Source: Marinicella sp. (GTDB lineage Bacteria; Pseudomonadota; Gammaproteobacteria; Xanthomonadales; Marinicellaceae). From it: 64,000 nucleotides of DNA. This document shows, one piece after another, positions 25,202-34,893 of this stretch (the first letter of the stretch is position 1; every line of letters starts with the position of its first letter). The notes below the pieces were generated by a model, which was not told the DNA's origin, did not search any database, and was given only the letters and a program-made list of their open reading frames with translations. Position numbers and translations under genes: made by a program. The DNA is taken from assembly GCA_028284365.1 (NCBI GenBank), contig JANQRW010000087.1:1-64000 (forward strand), in the 5' to 3' direction.

Positions 25202-25220
25202 TGGCGCGCTCGGCAGGAGT
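25202..25220. repeat. 19-bp direct copy of the tRNA-Arg 3' end
   Basis: TGGCGCGCTCGGCAGGAGT is identical to 25375-25393, which is the encoded CCA, the discriminator, the acceptor strand and part of the T arm of the neighbouring tRNA gene. The copies are 173 bp apart. This looks like an attachment-site-type duplication or a tRNA gene fragment. Confidence 0.7.
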
Positions 25221-25321
25221 ACTTCGGGCATCCTGCCCTTCGCCCTGTGGGTCCGACAAGCGGGGTTGAATCGCTCCAGGCGATTCAATTGAACCAAGCA
25301 AGGCTTGACAGCCTTGCGGTT
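25212..25321. other. cluster of three hairpins beside tRNA-Arg
   Basis: Hairpin 1 is GGCAGGA/TCCTGCC (25212-25237). Hairpin 2 is TTGAATCGC/GCGATTCAA (25266-25288), perfect 9 bp with loop TCCAG. Hairpin 3 is GCAAGGC/GCCTTGC (25298-25317), extended by AACC/GGTT outside a small bulge. None has a T-run. The region is GC-richer than its surroundings and non-coding. Confidence 0.55.
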
Positions 25322-25345
25322 AAACTCAGCCTTACTTCCCACACT

Positions 25346-25364
25346 AAAAAGCCGCTGATGCGGC
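25346..25364 (-). terminator. terminator of tRNA-Arg
   Basis: On the minus strand, GCCGC-ATCA-GCGGC is followed by TTTTT, 11 bp past the CCA end of the tRNA. The stem is short but GC-only. Confidence 0.7.
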
Positions 25365-25374
25365 GGTTTCAGCG

Positions 25375-25451
25375 TGGCGCGCTCGGCAGGAGTTGAACCT
25401 GCGACCTACCGCTTAGGAGGCGGTTGCTCTATCCAACTGAGCTACGAGCGC
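25375..25451 (-). tRNA. tRNA-Arg (anticodon CCT)
   Basis: A 77-nt cloverleaf read on the minus strand. Acceptor is GCGCTCG/CGAGCGC, D arm GCTC...GAGC and anticodon stem ACCGC/GCGGT, with loop CTCCTAA giving anticodon CCT (reads AGG). The T arm is GCAGG-TTCAACT-CCTGC. Discriminator G is followed by an encoded CCA. All stems pair perfectly. Confidence 0.95.
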
Positions 25452-25464
25452 TGAGCAGGTTATT

Positions 25465-26385
25465 TTATTTTGATTTGTTTTTTTCTGCAAAGACAATAGC
25501 AATTTTATCGGCTTTTGGACTGGTAGTGAGTCGGGTAATTTGATGCAGTTTTTGATCATTAAACTCGGCAATGATGTACCAACGTCTCTGATCGGTGCTC
25601 ACATAAAGCGTATTATCGCGACCAGCCCAAAAACGCCCTGCACTGTCTAAGGTAAAATCTTCGACCCCCATCGGCAGAGACATCACATCTTCGTGGGTAC
25701 CATCAGTTTTACGCATATGAATGCGCCACGGCGTTGTGTTTTTATCAACATAATAAAGACGCATTTGTTTTTGATCGGTGATAAATGCACGGCCTACATT
25801 CTCTGAGAGCTTTTGGGCTTTGGTATTGGTTTTTTGTAAATACAAATCACCACCATTGTTATCATTAAGAATAAAACTCCACAAACTGCCATCAACAGTC
25901 CAATTAAAATACCCCACTTGTTTAAGGTCACTGTAACGTTGCATTTGTTTCTCAACTGAAGCAGATTGATCAAGGATGACTACGTATTGGTTGCCCTGTT
26001 CATCCACTTGCACCACACTTATATTTGGATTATCAGCCATTGGGGTGGCTGAGTATTCACTCAACGCAGTGGTCATATATGGCTGAGTTTGACCAGTTGC
26101 AATATCATATTGATAGATGTCCATCTGAGTGCTTTGGTCGGTATTTACAGCTCGCGTGTAGTACAACAAACCACCATCATTTGAAAACTTGGGTTGGTTA
26201 TCATAACCGGTACGCTGGGTGATGTTTTTACCTTCCGATAAAGCCAACACACCATGGGTATTTTGTTCGATATCAAACAACAAAATTTCAGTCCCTGAAA
26301 TAACCACCGTTGTGGGCTTTTCATCCGTGTTCTCAGCACCTGCTTGCCAACTAAAAAAAAGCAACAATACCATCAATAGTTTCAT
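25465..26385 (-). CDS. periplasmic TolB/WD40-like beta-propeller protein
   Basis: The 306-residue protein has a signal peptide (MKLLMVLLLFFSWQAGA). Repeated short beta-propeller blades follow, of the kind seen in TolB-like proteins: QPKFSNDGGLLYYTR...DIYQYDIATGQTQPY, YFNWTVDGSLWSF, RLYYVDKNTTPWRIHMRKTDG. No enzyme motif is present. The start overlaps crcB by 4 nt, placing it last in the lolA-rarA-crcB transcript. Its exact role is unknown. Confidence 0.75.
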   Translation of the reverse strand: MKLLMVLLLFFSWQAGAENTDEKPTTVVISGTEILLFDIEQNTHGVLALSEGKNITQRTGYDNQPKFSNDGGLLYYTRAVNTDQSTQMDIYQYDIATGQTQPYMTTALSEYSATPMADNPNISVVQVDEQGNQYVVILDQSASVEKQMQRYSDLKQVGYFNWTVDGSLWSFILNDNNGGDLYLQKTNTKAQKLSENVGRAFITDQKQMRLYYVDKNTTPWRIHMRKTDGTHEDVMSLPMGVEDFTLDSAGRFWAGRDNTLYVSTDQRRWYIIAEFNDQKLHQITRLTTSPKADKIAIVFAEKNKSK

Positions 26386-28747: not shown

Positions 28748-29082
28748 GTAAATAAAAAAACCATTTTACCTAATCAAACTGAATCTTGGGTAAATAAAAA
28801 TATTTCTCTGTCACTCACAAGTGTCCACCTCTTTAATAGAATACATAATATTGACCTTAATGAGCATCACAGAAATGAGTGTGGTGATACTGACTGTATA
28901 CACCTTGCCCGATTACAACACTTTTTATTTGCAAATAAGTACACAAAAATTTGTTGACATTTCTACCTTTATATTTTAACTTAAAATTAAAAGGGGGTTA
29001 AGAAAGTTCGCCAGAAGTGGCTATGGATGATCGGCTGTTCTTAATCGAAAAACATAAACCTATATACACACCAGAGGTAATG
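28748..29082. other. intergenic region between divergent lolA and the giant surface protein gene
   Basis: About 335 bp, AT-rich. It should hold the promoters of both genes. A TTGACA at 28954 lies about 125 bp before the surface protein start, with AT-rich hexamers downstream, but the spacing to any good -10 is poor. ATG codons at 29017 and 29080 lie upstream of the chosen start at 29083. Confidence 0.35.
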
Positions 29083-32000
29083 ATGTTTCATCGTTTGTCG
29101 ATATTTTTAATTGCTTTTGCATTACTTTACTTTACCAACTCATCAGCACAAGATCGATTTTATAATATTTATGTGGATACTGATGGCTCAATCACTACTG
29201 GTTGTGATGTAAATTTGCCAGAATTTTCATCCAACATCGGGGGAGTCGAATCCCGACTCACCATAACCACTGACAGCGCCTTACCTCCCAATGTTACTGC
29301 CACCACTTTTCACCAATGCGATGGAACAGCCTTTGGGACGGGCAGCGCCATTGCACCAGCAGCCATGGGCTTGAACACTGGTATGAATGGCACTGATGTT
29401 TTTGAAGTGGGGTTCAATCAAAACCTTTTGAATGTTACCAGCTCAGGCAATGTAATATTCTATTTCACTACAGATTCAAACACCGCTTCTGACATCGTTT
29501 TGACTCAGTCCAATGGTGGTCCAATCATTTTAGGATTTGTTTTCCCAGTACCAGCGTTAGGACTGTTGGCGTTGTGTTTGATTATATGCTGCGTGCTTCT
29601 GATGACAAGAAAATCCATGTCAAGCAAAATGGCACTCTCTGTTATGTTGATTGGTGTTAGTTCACTTGTCTGGGCAATGAACATCATTGTTGATGGACAA
29701 ACCAATGATTGGACAACCTTTCAGCCCTCAGCATCAGACCCGGTGGGTGATACATCCCAGAATGGAAGCTTCGCCGATCTAACTGCTGTGTTTTTAACCA
29801 AAGTGAATGAAACAGTTTTTGTCCGTTTAGATGTGGTTGATGTTGAAAATCAGGCACCTTCAGCAAATGGCAATTCTGTAACCACACTTGAAGAACAGGC
29901 GGTCACGATCACTTTGACTGGCTCTGACGCTGAAGGCTCCGCCATCACTTTTGCTGAAGGCAATGCACCAACAAACGGTGTATTGAGTAATTTCACAGTC
30001 GTTGATGGCACTTCATCCACCGTTGATTACATACCAAACACAGATTTTGCAGGATCAGATGGTTTTACCGTGGTTGCCAATGATGGTCAGATAGATTCAG
30101 CTCCTGCCAGCATAGCAGTGCAAGTTAATCCTGTGAATGATGCGCCCAGCTTTATTTCTGGTGGCAATGTTAATGTTTTAAAAACTGCCGGTGCATATAA
30201 TCAAATTTGGGCCACTGACATTTCAGCAGGTCCAGTCGATGAATCTAGCCAAAATCTGACTTTCAATATCACAACAAACGACAATGCTGCTATTTTTACT
30301 GTACAACCAAGCATTGACTCATCGGGCATGTTGACATTTGAGGGAGTTCCAGATGCCACTGGCACTGCCAATTTGTCGGTCAACTTAGTTGATGATGGTG
30401 GCACAGCTAATGGCGGTTTTGATACTTCTACAACAGTCGATTTCACCATCACTTTACAGGGCGTAAACGACGAACCCACTTTCACTGCGGGAGCAGATCA
30501 ATCATTACTTGAAGATGCCGGCACGCAAACAATTGTCGGCTGGGCCACAGCCATATCAGCTGGACCACCTGATGAATCCGGGCAAGCGCTCACTTTTAAT
30601 GTAACCAATAACGATGATCCAGCTTTATTCAGCGTAACGCCACAAATAGATGCCACAACTGGCGACCTTTCATTCACACCTGCTGCTGATGCCAATGGTA
30701 TAGCCAATATTTCAGTCTTTTTAATGGACGATGGTGGTACAGCCAATGGTGGCGATGATACATCACCAACCGCTTCCTTCAATATCACATTAACTGCAGT
30801 TAACGACGCACCCTCTTTCACTGCTGGGGCCAATCAAAATGCACTGGAAGGTGCAGGCGCACAAACTGTTAATAGCTGGGCCACTGGCATATCTCCCGGT
30901 CCAGCTGATGAAGCAGCACAAGCCACATCTTTCAATGTCAGCAATGACAACAATGGATTATTCACAGTTCAACCCAACATTGATGCAGCAGGTAATTTGA
31001 CTTACACGCCTGAAGGCACTGTTTTAGGTTCAGCCACTGTTACTGTCTCAATCAGTGACGATGGTGGTACTGCCAATGGAGGCGTAGACACTTCGACGAA
31101 TCAAACCTTCATTATCAGCGTGACTCCGGTTAATGATGAACCCTCATTTACTTCAGGACCCGATGAAACAGTATCAGAAGACGCTGGCGCACAAACTGTT
31201 AATGGTTGGGCCACCAACATCATGGCAGGCCCGCCCGATGAAGCCGGACAAAATTTAACCTTTAACATCACTGCAAACAACAACCCTGGCCTCTTCAGTG
31301 TTGGACCTGCGGTGTCTGCTGATGGTACTTTGAGCTACACGCCTGCTGCTGATGCCAATGGTACAGCCAACATCACCATAGAATTGATGGATGATGGCGG
31401 CACTGCTAATGGTGGCGATGACACCTCACCACCGCAAAGTTTCAGCATCACTGTCAACCCACTAAACGACGCCCCTGATTTCACTGTTGGTGCCAACCAG
31501 AGTGTGCTGGAAGAATCAGGCCCACAAACGGTTAATGGTTGGGCCACCAACATATCTCCAGGTCCAAGTAATGAATCAGCACAATCTGTCAGCTTCAATG
31601 TCGCCAATAACAACAATGCACTGTTCAGCGTCCAGCCTGCTGTCGACACCTCCGGTAATTTGACTTATACACCAACAGCCAATACCAGTGGTTCAGCCAC
31701 GGTCAGTGTTGCTGCGATGGATGATGGTGGCACAGCCAACGGTGGTGTTGACACATCAGCCCCACAAAATTTCACCATCACCGTTGTAGGGATAAACGAT
31801 GCACCCAGCTTCACTGCAGCTGCTGATCCTGCAGCGTCTAGTGAAGATGGAGGTGCTGAATCTCTGGCATGGGCCTCTGGCATTTCAGCTGGTCCAGCTG
31901 ATGAATCTGGACAAACGCTCACCTTTAATTTAACTCAGACCAGTATCGATACAACATTGAGTTTTTCAACTGTGCCATCAGTGAACAGCACCACTGGTAA

Positions 32001-34893
32001 TGTTGAATACACTGCTGCAGCCAATGCATTTGGTACAGCCACATACGATGTTGTATTGATGGATGATGGCGGCGTCGCTAACGGTGGGATTGACACCTCT
32101 AGTCCCGCTGTTTCGCTGACCATAACTGTGGATCCAGTTAATGATCCACCATCAGTTACAGCACCAGGACCATTTGCAGTCACCACTAACATTCGAATTG
32201 AAGTTCCTGACGGAAGCAGTGATTTGTTGGCCAATGCCACAGACGTTGAACCAAGCACCACTTTATCAATCCAGGGTAGTGGTTCCATAGCCACAACACA
32301 AGGAGGCACCATCACTGTTAACAATGCCACAGGTGAATTCAGTTATGACCCTCCACCAGGTTTTACTGGCACAGACACTTTTGATTATCAGGTTTGTGAT
32401 GATGGCGTTCCAGTACCCGCAGCTTGTAGCACTGCAGTTACAGTTACACTGAACGTGTCAGGAAATACCATCTGGTTTATCGACAATACTGCTGCTGCTG
32501 GAAATGGAACACTGCAAACACCATTTAACTCATTGTCGGCATTTAACTCATCAGCCAACCCTGGCACCGGGCATTATGTCTTTCTGGCCACTGGAACCGG
32601 CACTTATAGCGAAGCTGGAATCACGCTGGCAGCAGGTCAAACTTTACTCGGTCAAGGCAGATCAGGTTCTTTCGATGTGGTGACCGGAATCACTGCTGCG
32701 CCATTCAGTATCAATAGGCCTACGCTGGGCGGAGCTCGACCTTTGATTGTCAGCTCTGCAAACGGCATAAACATGTCCACCAACAATGATATCAGAGGTT
32801 TGAATATTGGCAACACCACCAACTTTGGTTTACGAGGCACAGTAATCGGCAACCTGACCTTAGACGAAGTCGGCATTAACGGTAATGGCGGAGGTATCCA
32901 AATCACCACCAGCGGTGCATTGTCATCGGTCAGCTTTGATGTTCTTGATTCTACAAGCAGCACCACTGCAGCAATAGACCTAAACGGCACCACTGGTACT
33001 GTGTCTATTGCTAGCAGCACGACTGGTATCAATAACAACTTTGCCAGTCCTGCCATACGCATCAATGGTGGTTCACTCAATATGACCTATCCTGGCAGCA
33101 TCAACAACACATCAGGTCGATCCATTGAGGTCAGTAATAACACTGGAGGGATCTTAAATTTCAATGGCCTAGTGGATGACGATGCAGCAGGAATTTTGCT
33201 GAATAACAACACCGGAGCAACCATAAACTTCTCCAGTTTAGATTTGGATACAGCTACTGATACAGCATTCACCGCAACTGGAGGTGGCACAGTCAATATA
33301 ACTGGCTCAACCAACACCATCGATACCACGACAGGTCTTGCCATAAATATACAAAACACTTCCATTGGCACATCCGGTATCACATTAAGAAGTGTTAGCA
33401 AGAATGGTGGTACCACTGGTATTGATATCAATGGTGCCGGCTCTGCAGGTTTCTTTACCATAACAGGTACGGGCACTTCCAATGGCAGCGGAGGAACAAT
33501 ACAGAACACCACTTTAAATGGCATTCTGATAGAGAATACCAATAACATCAACATCAGTAATGTAAATCTCAACAATGGCACCAACGAATCCGCTGGCTGT
33601 TTAGCTGGAGTTAATGGTGTCAGTGGCGATTGTAACGCCGCGATTGAATTCAATACAGTCAGCAATATTAATTTAACAAACCTCACCATAGACGGCAACG
33701 GCGATGCCTCTGACGAGTTAGGCATATATGCCAACACAGTCACCAACTTCGATATGAACAATGTAACGGTTCAAAACGTATCAGACAGCATCAATGAACA
33801 CGGTATTTATGTGGTTAATTTAGCTGGAATCGGCAGCAACACCAGTCGCTGGCAAGATCTGACTGTTAACAACACGGCTGGAGACACAGCTATATTAGTG
33901 ACTCAAAACACCGGCAACGCAGAATTAATTGTTGATGGGGATACCAACATCACCAATGCCCTGGAAGCTGGTTTTGAAGCCAGAACCACCACCGCAACTG
34001 CTAACCTGACCGTTACCCTGGGCGATGCACCAGCAATAGGCAGTGAAACTACACTGATTGAAAACACCAATATTGGCGCCCTTTTCATCGCTGATAATGG
34101 CAATTTAACCGCCAATGTTCGCAACAGCATCATTCAACCAGGAGCTGGTATCGGTTCTATTATCAGACCAGGTTCAGGTTCTAATGGTGTTATGTTTGTC
34201 GGTGTTACGGCACAATCTGGAGGTACTACAGGATCAGTCACACTGAATGCGATAGGTAACAGCACCACTCAGGAAGACGGTGGCGCTGGCGGTACAGGTA
34301 GATCGGCCAATGCCTTGGGCGGATCTCAAAACATCAGTGGCAATGTCAGCAACAACACCATTGGATCTAATGACGAATTTGTAGACGGATTCTTTTCAAA
34401 CTTTACTGGAGTCGGTAACTTAACCACCAATACAGTTCTTATAGATAACAACATCATCAATATGACTGGAACAGGCACCAATGAAACCATCTCAGGCATT
34501 GAATACAACGCTTCGGACAGTGCAGGTGAATTATCCATGACGGTCACCAACAACACCATATTTTCGGCCGGTGATAATGGATTTTCGGGAGGTATCATCT
34601 CACTGGCTGGTGATACTGGTGGTGGCGATAATAACATTCTTTGTACTGATTTGATAGGAAATGATGCCACATTACCCAATGCACCTGTTGGTGTTGATGG
34701 TGACGATTATGTCTTTGTTTCTTTCTCTGGCACTGAAATCAGGCTGGAAAACCCAACTTTAGGTGTCTTGTCAGAAGCTCAAATTGATGCCCACATTATT
34801 GGCAACGACGCAGGAACAACAACAGCAACCGATGTTAATGTCTTCAACGTAGGTAGTGGCTTCCACTCTGGTGTGAGTGCATGCCCACAATAA
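29083..34893 (+). CDS. giant exported surface protein: cadherin-like repeats plus beta-helix-like region
   Basis: Start chosen at 29083 (AGAGG 5 nt upstream, then a signal peptide ending SSAQ); starts at 29080 or 29017 are in frame. The product is about 1,936 residues. Residues 1-178 form a small exported domain ending in VPALGLLALCLIICCVLLMTRK. A second signal-like segment, MSSKMALSVMLIGVSSLVWA, follows at once. Next come six ~110-residue repeats (VNDAPSF...GxANGGxDTS), an Ig-like domain (VNDPPSVTAPG) and about 700 residues of Asn/Thr/Gly-rich parallel beta-helix-like sequence beginning NTIWFIDNTAAAGNGTLQTPF. It is probably an adhesin or surface-layer type protein; the secretion route is not visible. 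Confidence 0.8.
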   Translation: MFHRLSIFLIAFALLYFTNSSAQDRFYNIYVDTDGSITTGCDVNLPEFSSNIGGVESRLTITTDSALPPNVTATTFHQCDGTAFGTGSAIAPAAMGLNTGMNGTDVFEVGFNQNLLNVTSSGNVIFYFTTDSNTASDIVLTQSNGGPIILGFVFPVPALGLLALCLIICCVLLMTRKSMSSKMALSVMLIGVSSLVWAMNIIVDGQTNDWTTFQPSASDPVGDTSQNGSFADLTAVFLTKVNETVFVRLDVVDVENQAPSANGNSVTTLEEQAVTITLTGSDAEGSAITFAEGNAPTNGVLSNFTVVDGTSSTVDYIPNTDFAGSDGFTVVANDGQIDSAPASIAVQVNPVNDAPSFISGGNVNVLKTAGAYNQIWATDISAGPVDESSQNLTFNITTNDNAAIFTVQPSIDSSGMLTFEGVPDATGTANLSVNLVDDGGTANGGFDTSTTVDFTITLQGVNDEPTFTAGADQSLLEDAGTQTIVGWATAISAGPPDESGQALTFNVTNNDDPALFSVTPQIDATTGDLSFTPAADANGIANISVFLMDDGGTANGGDDTSPTASFNITLTAVNDAPSFTAGANQNALEGAGAQTVNSWATGISPGPADEAAQATSFNVSNDNNGLFTVQPNIDAAGNLTYTPEGTVLGSATVTVSISDDGGTANGGVDTSTNQTFIISVTPVNDEPSFTSGPDETVSEDAGAQTVNGWATNIMAGPPDEAGQNLTFNITANNNPGLFSVGPAVSADGTLSYTPAADANGTANITIELMDDGGTANGGDDTSPPQSFSITVNPLNDAPDFTVGANQSVLEESGPQTVNGWATNISPGPSNESAQSVSFNVANNNNALFSVQPAVDTSGNLTYTPTANTSGSATVSVAAMDDGGTANGGVDTSAPQNFTITVVGINDAPSFTAAADPAASSEDGGAESLAWASGISAGPADESGQTLTFNLTQTSIDTTLSFSTVPSVNSTTGNVEYTAAANAFGTATYDVVLMDDGGVANGGIDTSSPAVSLTITVDPVNDPPSVTAPGPFAVTTNIRIEVPDGSSDLLANATDVEPSTTLSIQGSGSIATTQGGTITVNNATGEFSYDPPPGFTGTDTFDYQVCDDGVPVPAACSTAVTVTLNVSGNTIWFIDNTAAAGNGTLQTPFNSLSAFNSSANPGTGHYVFLATGTGTYSEAGITLAAGQTLLGQGRSGSFDVVTGITAAPFSINRPTLGGARPLIVSSANGINMSTNNDIRGLNIGNTTNFGLRGTVIGNLTLDEVGINGNGGGIQITTSGALSSVSFDVLDSTSSTTAAIDLNGTTGTVSIASSTTGINNNFASPAIRINGGSLNMTYPGSINNTSGRSIEVSNNTGGILNFNGLVDDDAAGILLNNNTGATINFSSLDLDTATDTAFTATGGGTVNITGSTNTIDTTTGLAINIQNTSIGTSGITLRSVSKNGGTTGIDINGAGSAGFFTITGTGTSNGSGGTIQNTTLNGILIENTNNINISNVNLNNGTNESAGCLAGVNGVSGDCNAAIEFNTVSNINLTNLTIDGNGDASDELGIYANTVTNFDMNNVTVQNVSDSINEHGIYVVNLAGIGSNTSRWQDLTVNNTAGDTAILVTQNTGNAELIVDGDTNITNALEAGFEARTTTATANLTVTLGDAPAIGSETTLIENTNIGALFIADNGNLTANVRNSIIQPGAGIGSIIRPGSGSNGVMFVGVTAQSGGTTGSVTLNAIGNSTTQEDGGAGGTGRSANALGGSQNISGNVSNNTIGSNDEFVDGFFSNFTGVGNLTTNTVLIDNNIINMTGTGTNETISGIEYNASDSAGELSMTVTNNTIFSAGDNGFSGGIISLAGDTGGGDNNILCTDLIGNDATLPNAPVGVDGDDYVFVSFSGTEIRLENPTLGVLSEAQIDAHIIGNDAGTTTATDVNVFNVGSGFHSGVSACPQ
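30133..32136 (+). repeat. six tandem ~330-bp repeats (cadherin-like modules)
   Basis: Units begin at VND/LND/IND motifs near 30133, 30463, 30799, 31129, 31462 and 31792, and a differing seventh domain begins near 32137. Spacing is 330-345 bp, always a multiple of three. Shared blocks are GPxDExxQ, DDGGxANGGxDTS and the closing ITV. Units differ at many positions, so they are old duplications and not recent ones. Confidence 0.85.

Follow-up and report, generated by a model that had tools for sequence, protein, structure and literature searches.

The description of tRNA-linked repeats (TLRs) in E. coli dates from 1978; in the account given in 2021, they had no known function, save that those linked to rRNA bind CsrA and Hfq; an earlier claim that connected TLRs with recovery from starvation was withdrawn (PMC8144298). 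According to the same source, the E. coli TLRs rrA, rrB, and rrF are transcribed and processed, and the E. coli rrnB T1–T2 cassette, which is present in many plasmids, carries a TLR. E. coli RrB binds CsrA in vitro, more weakly when three GGAs are mutated, and its deletion and overexpression are described as giving modest, puzzling phenotypes only (PMC8144298). The CsrA site is a GGA in hairpin loops; CAGGA(U/A/C)G is the form found in the CsrB repeats, selection gave the consensus RUACARGGAUGU, and a single CsrA dimer bridges sites that are 10–63 nt apart, as reported in PMC7652899 and PMC5027483. The trailer of a tRNA transcript has also been cited as a regulator, in the case of 3′ETS-leuZ (PMC8144298). 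The RNA that we propose below would resemble 3′ETS-leuZ in being such a trailer. 3′ETS-leuZ works by base pairing with sRNAs, and we know of no tail copy in it.

Here, we analyzed a stretch of 64,000 nucleotides of Marinicella sp. DNA, hereafter the window, whose sole tRNA gene, as determined by ARAGORN, is tRNA-Arg(CCT) at 25375–25451 on the minus strand (Rfam tRNA model, 72.2 bits). Promoter-like hexamers were located just 5′ of this gene by a consensus scan only (25462–25491, minus), and a terminator-like hairpin with a T run lies directly 3′ of it (25351–25364, minus) and can be compared with T1 of E. coli rrnB; the 1 kb scanned contains one terminator-like hairpin, as compared to a mean of 0.8 in shuffled sequences. 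The 19-mer TGGCGCGCTCGGCAGGAGT occurs at 25375–25393, as the end of the tRNA gene from the T-loop to CCA, and again at 25202–25220, downstream on the transcript side, with a start-to-start distance of 173 and 154 nt between the tRNA end and the second copy. By simple arithmetic, about 1e-6 exact repeats of 19 bp are expected by chance in 0.9 kb. The initial annotation, made from the letters of the window, had reported this exact copy, its CCA, its distance of 173 bp and its side, and all of these held at 100% identity. It had also reported three strong hairpins between the copies. The strong folding was borne out, since the 173-nt stretch reaches −76.6 kcal/mol as compared to −59.5 ± 4.2 kcal/mol in shuffles (z −4.1) and beats 199 of 200 of them; the count was not, as the stretch holds the terminator-like hairpin and several more. 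Neither of the flanking reading frames, of 306 and 153 aa, has a match in Pfam. The remaining frames that were tested nearby are RecN-like, a peroxidase, CrcB, MgsA/RarA-like, and LolA, so that no integrase was found among the flanking and nearby frames tested. A repetitive reading frame of 1958 aa is situated further along, at 29017–34893 of the window.

The segment that ends in the second copy is almost certainly a tRNA-linked repeat, kin of the Rfam family RtT, judging from its sequence and predicted fold. A covariance model, R1, was built from 53 aligned elements of the class with no Marinicella among them, and it gave a single match in the 64-kb window, at 25332–25202 on the minus strand (49.4 bits, E 1.1e-13). 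The element carries, towards its 5′ end, a decayed inverted copy of the T-arm/acceptor 3′ part of its host tRNA (GGCTGAGTTTAACC versus GGCAGGAGTTGAACC, 25318–25331, minus), which was recognized by eye and follows a family-wide pattern. It continues with GGTTCAA (25289–25295, minus), a copy of the 5′ side of the host T-loop (GGTTCA in the host, GGTTCA in the element) that forms the left flank of the core. The core itself consists of hairpin 1 (25266–25288, minus), whose loop CTGGA has its GGA at 25275–25277 according to the R1 alignment and the fold; the family-conserved CCC-NNN-GGG hairpin, here CCCACAGGG (25243–25251, minus), according to the class alignment and R1; and hairpin 3, GGGCAGGATGCCC (25226–25238, minus), assigned by R1, whose loop carries the CsrB-type motif CAGGAUG with its GGA at 25231–25233 and with which pairing to the tail competes. 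The tail (25202–25220, minus) is the exact 19-nt copy of the tRNA-Arg(CCT) 3′ end including CCA. Of the features that mark TLRs, the window element has a 3′ end identical to that of the upstream stable RNA (19 of 19 positions, as compared to the usual 18–19 bp), a position directly downstream of the tRNA gene on the same strand, and a folded core homologous to those of E. coli rrB and the tyrT repeats, all of which R1 matches.

The element is thus a further case, in Marinicella, of a kind already known from E. coli. Like the window element, rrA, rrB, and rrF have at their 3′ end 18–19 bp copied from the stable RNA that precedes them (PMC8144298), and a terminator lies between host gene and repeat both in the E. 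coli rRNA operons and in the window. R1 finds the same core in rrB and in the window at nearly the same score (48.9 versus 49.4 bits), and GGA is present in hairpins 1 and 3 of both. The host differs, being tRNA-Arg(CCT) in the window and 5S rRNA for rrA, rrB, and rrF; homologs of rrB are reported in Enterobacteriales only (PMC8144298), whereas the window is from Marinicella; and a hairpin/T-run scan found no second terminator downstream of the repeat in the window, in contrast to the E. coli rRNA-operon TLRs. In the stretches of E. coli K-12 that were searched, R1 matched four tyrT–tyrV repeats (77–84 bits) and, in rrnB, the repeat that follows 5S. The tyrT repeats of E. coli are the RtT RNA of Rfam (RF00391), and they share with the window element the tail rule, the GGTTCRA flank and the CCCGAAGGG hairpin; unlike those of the window, their loops are without GGA. 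The window element also falls below any RtT threshold: the Rfam model did not match it even at E 10, with a gathering cut-off of 45 bits, so RtT was rejected as the full answer. The best RtT score for elements at tRNA-Ser was 41.1 bits, under the same cut-off, and in the source genome the model found nothing at E 0.001 and the Ser element at E 0.00156 in a looser search. The fold on which R1 rests is supported by the class alignment, in which 222 helix cells changed on both sides versus 81 in shuffles, and in which P1, HP1, and HP3 are paired in 86.7% of cells, as compared to 69.8% after shuffling and no more than 55% after sliding. With CsrB and CsrC, the window element shares, in the family fold, GGA of the CAGGAUG type in hairpin loops; these RNAs have about 9–22 sites, as compared to two loop sites in the window element, which would be joined to a tRNA transcript, and an Rfam scan of the element gave no match to the CsrB/CsrC families.

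In the source genome and the 40 relatives searched, parts of the hairpin region were also found next to other tRNAs, and the same anatomy was seen 3′ of tRNA-Ser(GCT), tRNA-Ser(GGA), and tRNA-Arg(CCT), where each element closes with a copy of its own tRNA's 3′ end. R1 matched in 37 of 41 relatives (E 1e-4) and, at E < 1e-6, in four places of the source genome, namely the repeat at tRNA-Ser(GCT), the element of the window, and two orphan elements that form a tandem pair on contig C54. A plain genome repeat, which the initial annotation had considered, was rejected, as the source genome has one full-length copy; flanking copies are present in relatives as well. The orphan pair (L229, 1501–1795) has GGA/GGA loops and no intact tRNA nearby, only a tRNA-Ser-like tail.

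The tail rule extends well beyond Marinicella. Within the order, the Rfam RtT model matched 91 of 151 genomes at E 10, with 8 of 151 above the cut-off; in a draw of 274 genomes from the class, it matched 62 at E 0.01, with 18 of 274 above the cut-off. From 162 RtT hits with a locus, weaker listed hits being left out, 30 were dropped for having no same-strand upstream tRNA in the stretch, and the remaining 132 elements stand behind tRNAs for Ser (76), Gln (29), Tyr (14), Arg (6), Glu (4), and Pro, Val, and Thr (1 each). The tail matches the last 18 nt of the adjacent tRNA at 16 or more positions in 108 of these 132 elements, which are found at Ser, Gln, Tyr, Arg, Glu, Pro, and Val tRNAs, while the tails of other isotypes fit only at 10–12 of 18 positions on average. 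The 5′ arm resembles an inverted copy of the same part of the tRNA as the tail. It pairs with its own tail at −16.1 kcal/mol versus −11.0 kcal/mol with the tails of other isotypes, and does so better in 85 of 100 elements (p 3e-14); of 103 distinct elements, 100 entered this comparison, since two contain N and one is without its 5′ part. The effect is strong in Tyr, Gln, and Glu and weak in four Arg elements (−8.7 versus −7.0 kcal/mol), and the anti-tail, as this 5′ inverted copy may be called, is decayed in the window element.

The sequences next to the core follow the host too. In Marinicella, the left flank follows the 5′ side of the host T-loop, with A in the element for A in the host in 9 of 9 cases at position 52 and in 5 of 6 at position 57, and the right flank consists of the 3′ side of the host T-loop and the acceptor. 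The left flank is nearly invariant over the class, so most of its tracking signal comes from Marinicella. In E. coli rrB, AGTAGG stands before the core, as in 5S, and AACTGCCAGGCAT after it. Since both flanks track the host, a core of about 65–75 nt appears as if lodged in the T-loop of a duplicated tRNA end, and from this we infer that TLRs are probably duplicates of the ends of stable RNA genes, each holding a core, which suggests how TLRs arise.

Among 70 Marinicella elements, 14 are 3′ repeats with their own tail. In 10, the core sits in the T-loop of a copied tRNA 5′ part that stands upstream of the intact tRNA, and in 8 it sits in the D-loop of a copy of the 5′ end of tRNA-Ser; 38 are degenerate, orphan or without a tRNA in the stretch analyzed. 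The T-loop inserts in 5′ copies are upstream of tRNA-Arg(TCG) at five loci (L270, L279, L280, L253, and L268), of tRNA-Arg(CCT) at L077, and of tRNA-Ser(GCT) at L259. Several Marinicella genomes carry csrA immediately 5′ of tRNA-Ser(GCT) and have elements in the gap; in the source genome csrA is likewise upstream of this tRNA, with no element between. At such loci the first 18–22 nt of tRNA-Ser(GCT) are copied, often in tandem, and a GGA/GGA core occupies the D-loop position (L072, L073, L078, L071, L263, L259, and L060, in genomes G001, G012, G013, G006, G002, G004, and G016). These copies with a core in the D-loop are the 5′ counterpart of the 3′ repeats.

At the tRNA-Arg(CCT) locus itself, 20 genomes of the genus and family were compared, and four of them have a clear R1 match (G000, G013, G015, and G022), which in G013 and G022 lies upstream of the intact tRNA. 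One further genome has a weak trace of 14 bits, and another (G014) has tandem tail copies with no R1 match. The patchy matches indicate that the element comes and goes. Among named genomes, Marinicella litoralis and a single MAG contig matched a 27-base pattern taken from the element.

The most informative feature of the core is its pair of GGA loops. The loops of hairpins 1 and 3 read CCGGGAG/CAGGACG in rrB and CCTGGAG/CAGGATG in the window, where the two GGAs are 44 nt apart in the family fold; in GGA/GGA cores generally, the median distance from first to last GGA is 48 nt. Across 271 distinct R1 cores, drawn from 325 alignment rows, GGA is present in both loops in 144, in neither in 94, and in one of the two in 17 and 16. 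As the consensus of R1 itself has GGA-like loops, elements taken with the Rfam model and folded singly served as a control; they gave 39 with both, 39 with neither and 12 discordant among the 90 parsed of 100, and some of the 12 look misparsed. When one core was drawn per family (59 families, 1000 draws), the median counts were 27/21/5/6, with a median p of 1.4e-6 and a largest p of 0.003. Both classes are present in 10 of 59 families. On contig C30 of genome G195 (L170), a tandem array behind tRNA-Gln has GGA/GGA and no-GGA elements side by side. Both GGAs are found in 66 of 67 distinct Marinicella cores, and they are kept as the stems vary, with 51 distinct hairpins 1 and 53 distinct hairpins 3 among the 67; CA(N)GGA(A/C/U)G stands in hairpin 3 of 60 of 67. 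A protein with two GGA pockets explains this paired pattern best, the main alternative being two old element lineages. By homology with RrB and from the loop statistics, elements of the GGA class probably bind CsrA, and a link between TLRs and CsrA outside rRNA operons was not found in print as far as we searched. We are somewhat less confident for the window copy. In its best single-sequence fold, GGCAGGA of hairpin 3 pairs with UCCUGCC of the tail, which would hide the second GGA; this could be a switch, or it could mean that the window copy binds CsrA poorly.

The gene csrA is present in the source genome, and its distribution was compared with that of the loops in 106 typed genomes, absence calls resting on draft genomes. 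At least one GGA/GGA element was found in 55 of 88 genomes with csrA versus 5 of 18 without a csrA hit (p 0.009, kinship ignored). The five exceptions (G008, G015, G251, G275, and G347) are drafts of about 210–470 contigs, and the first two of them are Marinicella. In one family of the order, f9, csrA was not found in 11 of 12 typed genomes (G032, G063, G105, G109, G118, G130, G135, G139, G143, G148, and G152) and appears to have been lost, and none of its 16 cores is GGA/GGA; the sole typed f9 genome with csrA, G042, is also without the GGA pair. Since f9 is one clade, this loss of csrA and GGA counts as close to one event. That GGA is paired in a largely all-or-none fashion across 59 families, that the loops stay constant as the stems change, and that GGA pairs are absent from the family without csrA together lead to a sharp prediction, namely that about half of the TLRs sampled are CsrA ligands and the remainder are not. 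In this way, the comparison makes the function of a little-understood family testable.

The element might instead be a TLR of the known kind without a CsrA function, whose core is structural, serving processing, terminator insulation or protection of the tRNA 3′ end, and whose GGA loops are the mark of an old sublineage. We consider this unlikely. It would agree with the 94 cores that keep their fold with no GGA in either loop, as the E. coli tyrT repeats also do, with the chance that the window fold hides one GGA, and with the proposal that the tail serves RNase E processing, made where the function of TLRs is called unknown (PMC8144298). However, the Marinicella loops stay NGGA despite the turnover of their stems, the two classes occur together within single families and within the G195 array, and RrB, a member of the same class, is reported to bind CsrA (PMC8144298). 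We also think it improbable that the core is a mobile, selfish module that inserts into tRNA loops, with regulation secondary. Its three settings in Marinicella and its patchy presence would fit such a module, but no copy was found in the source genome away from tRNA-like sequence, even the orphan pair adjoining a tRNA-Ser-like tail, and there is no mobility gene among the nearby frames tested and no phage match, a weak test given the 38 unassignable Marinicella elements.

An integrase can leave a 19-bp repeat from T-loop to CCA, and the initial annotation had named the scar of an excised element first among its three readings. We regard an attachment-site scar of an island or phage in tRNA-Arg as extremely improbable, because the same element stands at many isotypes with the end of each tRNA, its fold is conserved, the frames tested include no integrase, and no island lies between the copies in G013 and G015, the relatives read that have the element at tRNA-Arg(CCT), where the annotation had proposed to look for one. 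The second reading, a very small satellite, found as little support, with no match of the element in phage records and no match of the 27-base pattern in viral contigs; island scar and satellite were both rejected on the integrase-free flanks, the missing phage matches and the many tRNA isotypes. A search of plasmids for distant matches gave, among the matches listed, only ones to query bases 1–94, which cover the tRNA and adjoining sequence. The third reading, a hairpin element that captured a tRNA end, comes close to the truth, since many tRNA genes have the core beside them, always combined with the end of the local tRNA.

The reading that we favor, and consider likely as a whole, is that the window TLR gives a trailer RNA that most likely binds one CsrA dimer and would tie CsrA availability to tRNA transcription, having arisen as a copy of the tRNA 3′ end with a core in its T-loop. 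Read-through of the terminator would put the trailer on one transcript with tRNA-Arg(CCT), and the enzymes of tRNA 3′-end maturation would cleave it at the tail copy, after the proposal made for E. coli RrB. Its core, with two GGA-loop hairpins 44 nt apart and of the GGA/GGA class, most likely binds one CsrA dimer, judging from homology and the loop statistics, and CsrA availability would thereby be coupled to transcription of the tRNA. As to origin, the own 3′ end of the tRNA would have been copied and the core lodged in its T-loop, with both flanks tracking the host tRNA. A broader reading is nearly as likely as not: TLRs may be class-wide CsrA-titrating RNAs coupled to stable-RNA transcription, which would arise when a portable core of about 65–75 nt lodges in the T-loop, the D-loop or the 5S end of a duplicated piece of a stable RNA gene, and would lose the GGA pair where csrA was lost; the Marinicella copies between csrA and tRNA-Ser(GCT) would then be positioned for csrA feedback.

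A further locus 3′ of tRNA-Arg(CCT), in genome G004 (L039), retains the terminator, the first hairpin and GGTTCAA, after which a foreign stretch follows and, further on, a piece like the 3′ side of hairpin 1. From its sequence, this locus appears to be a remnant of a window-type element.
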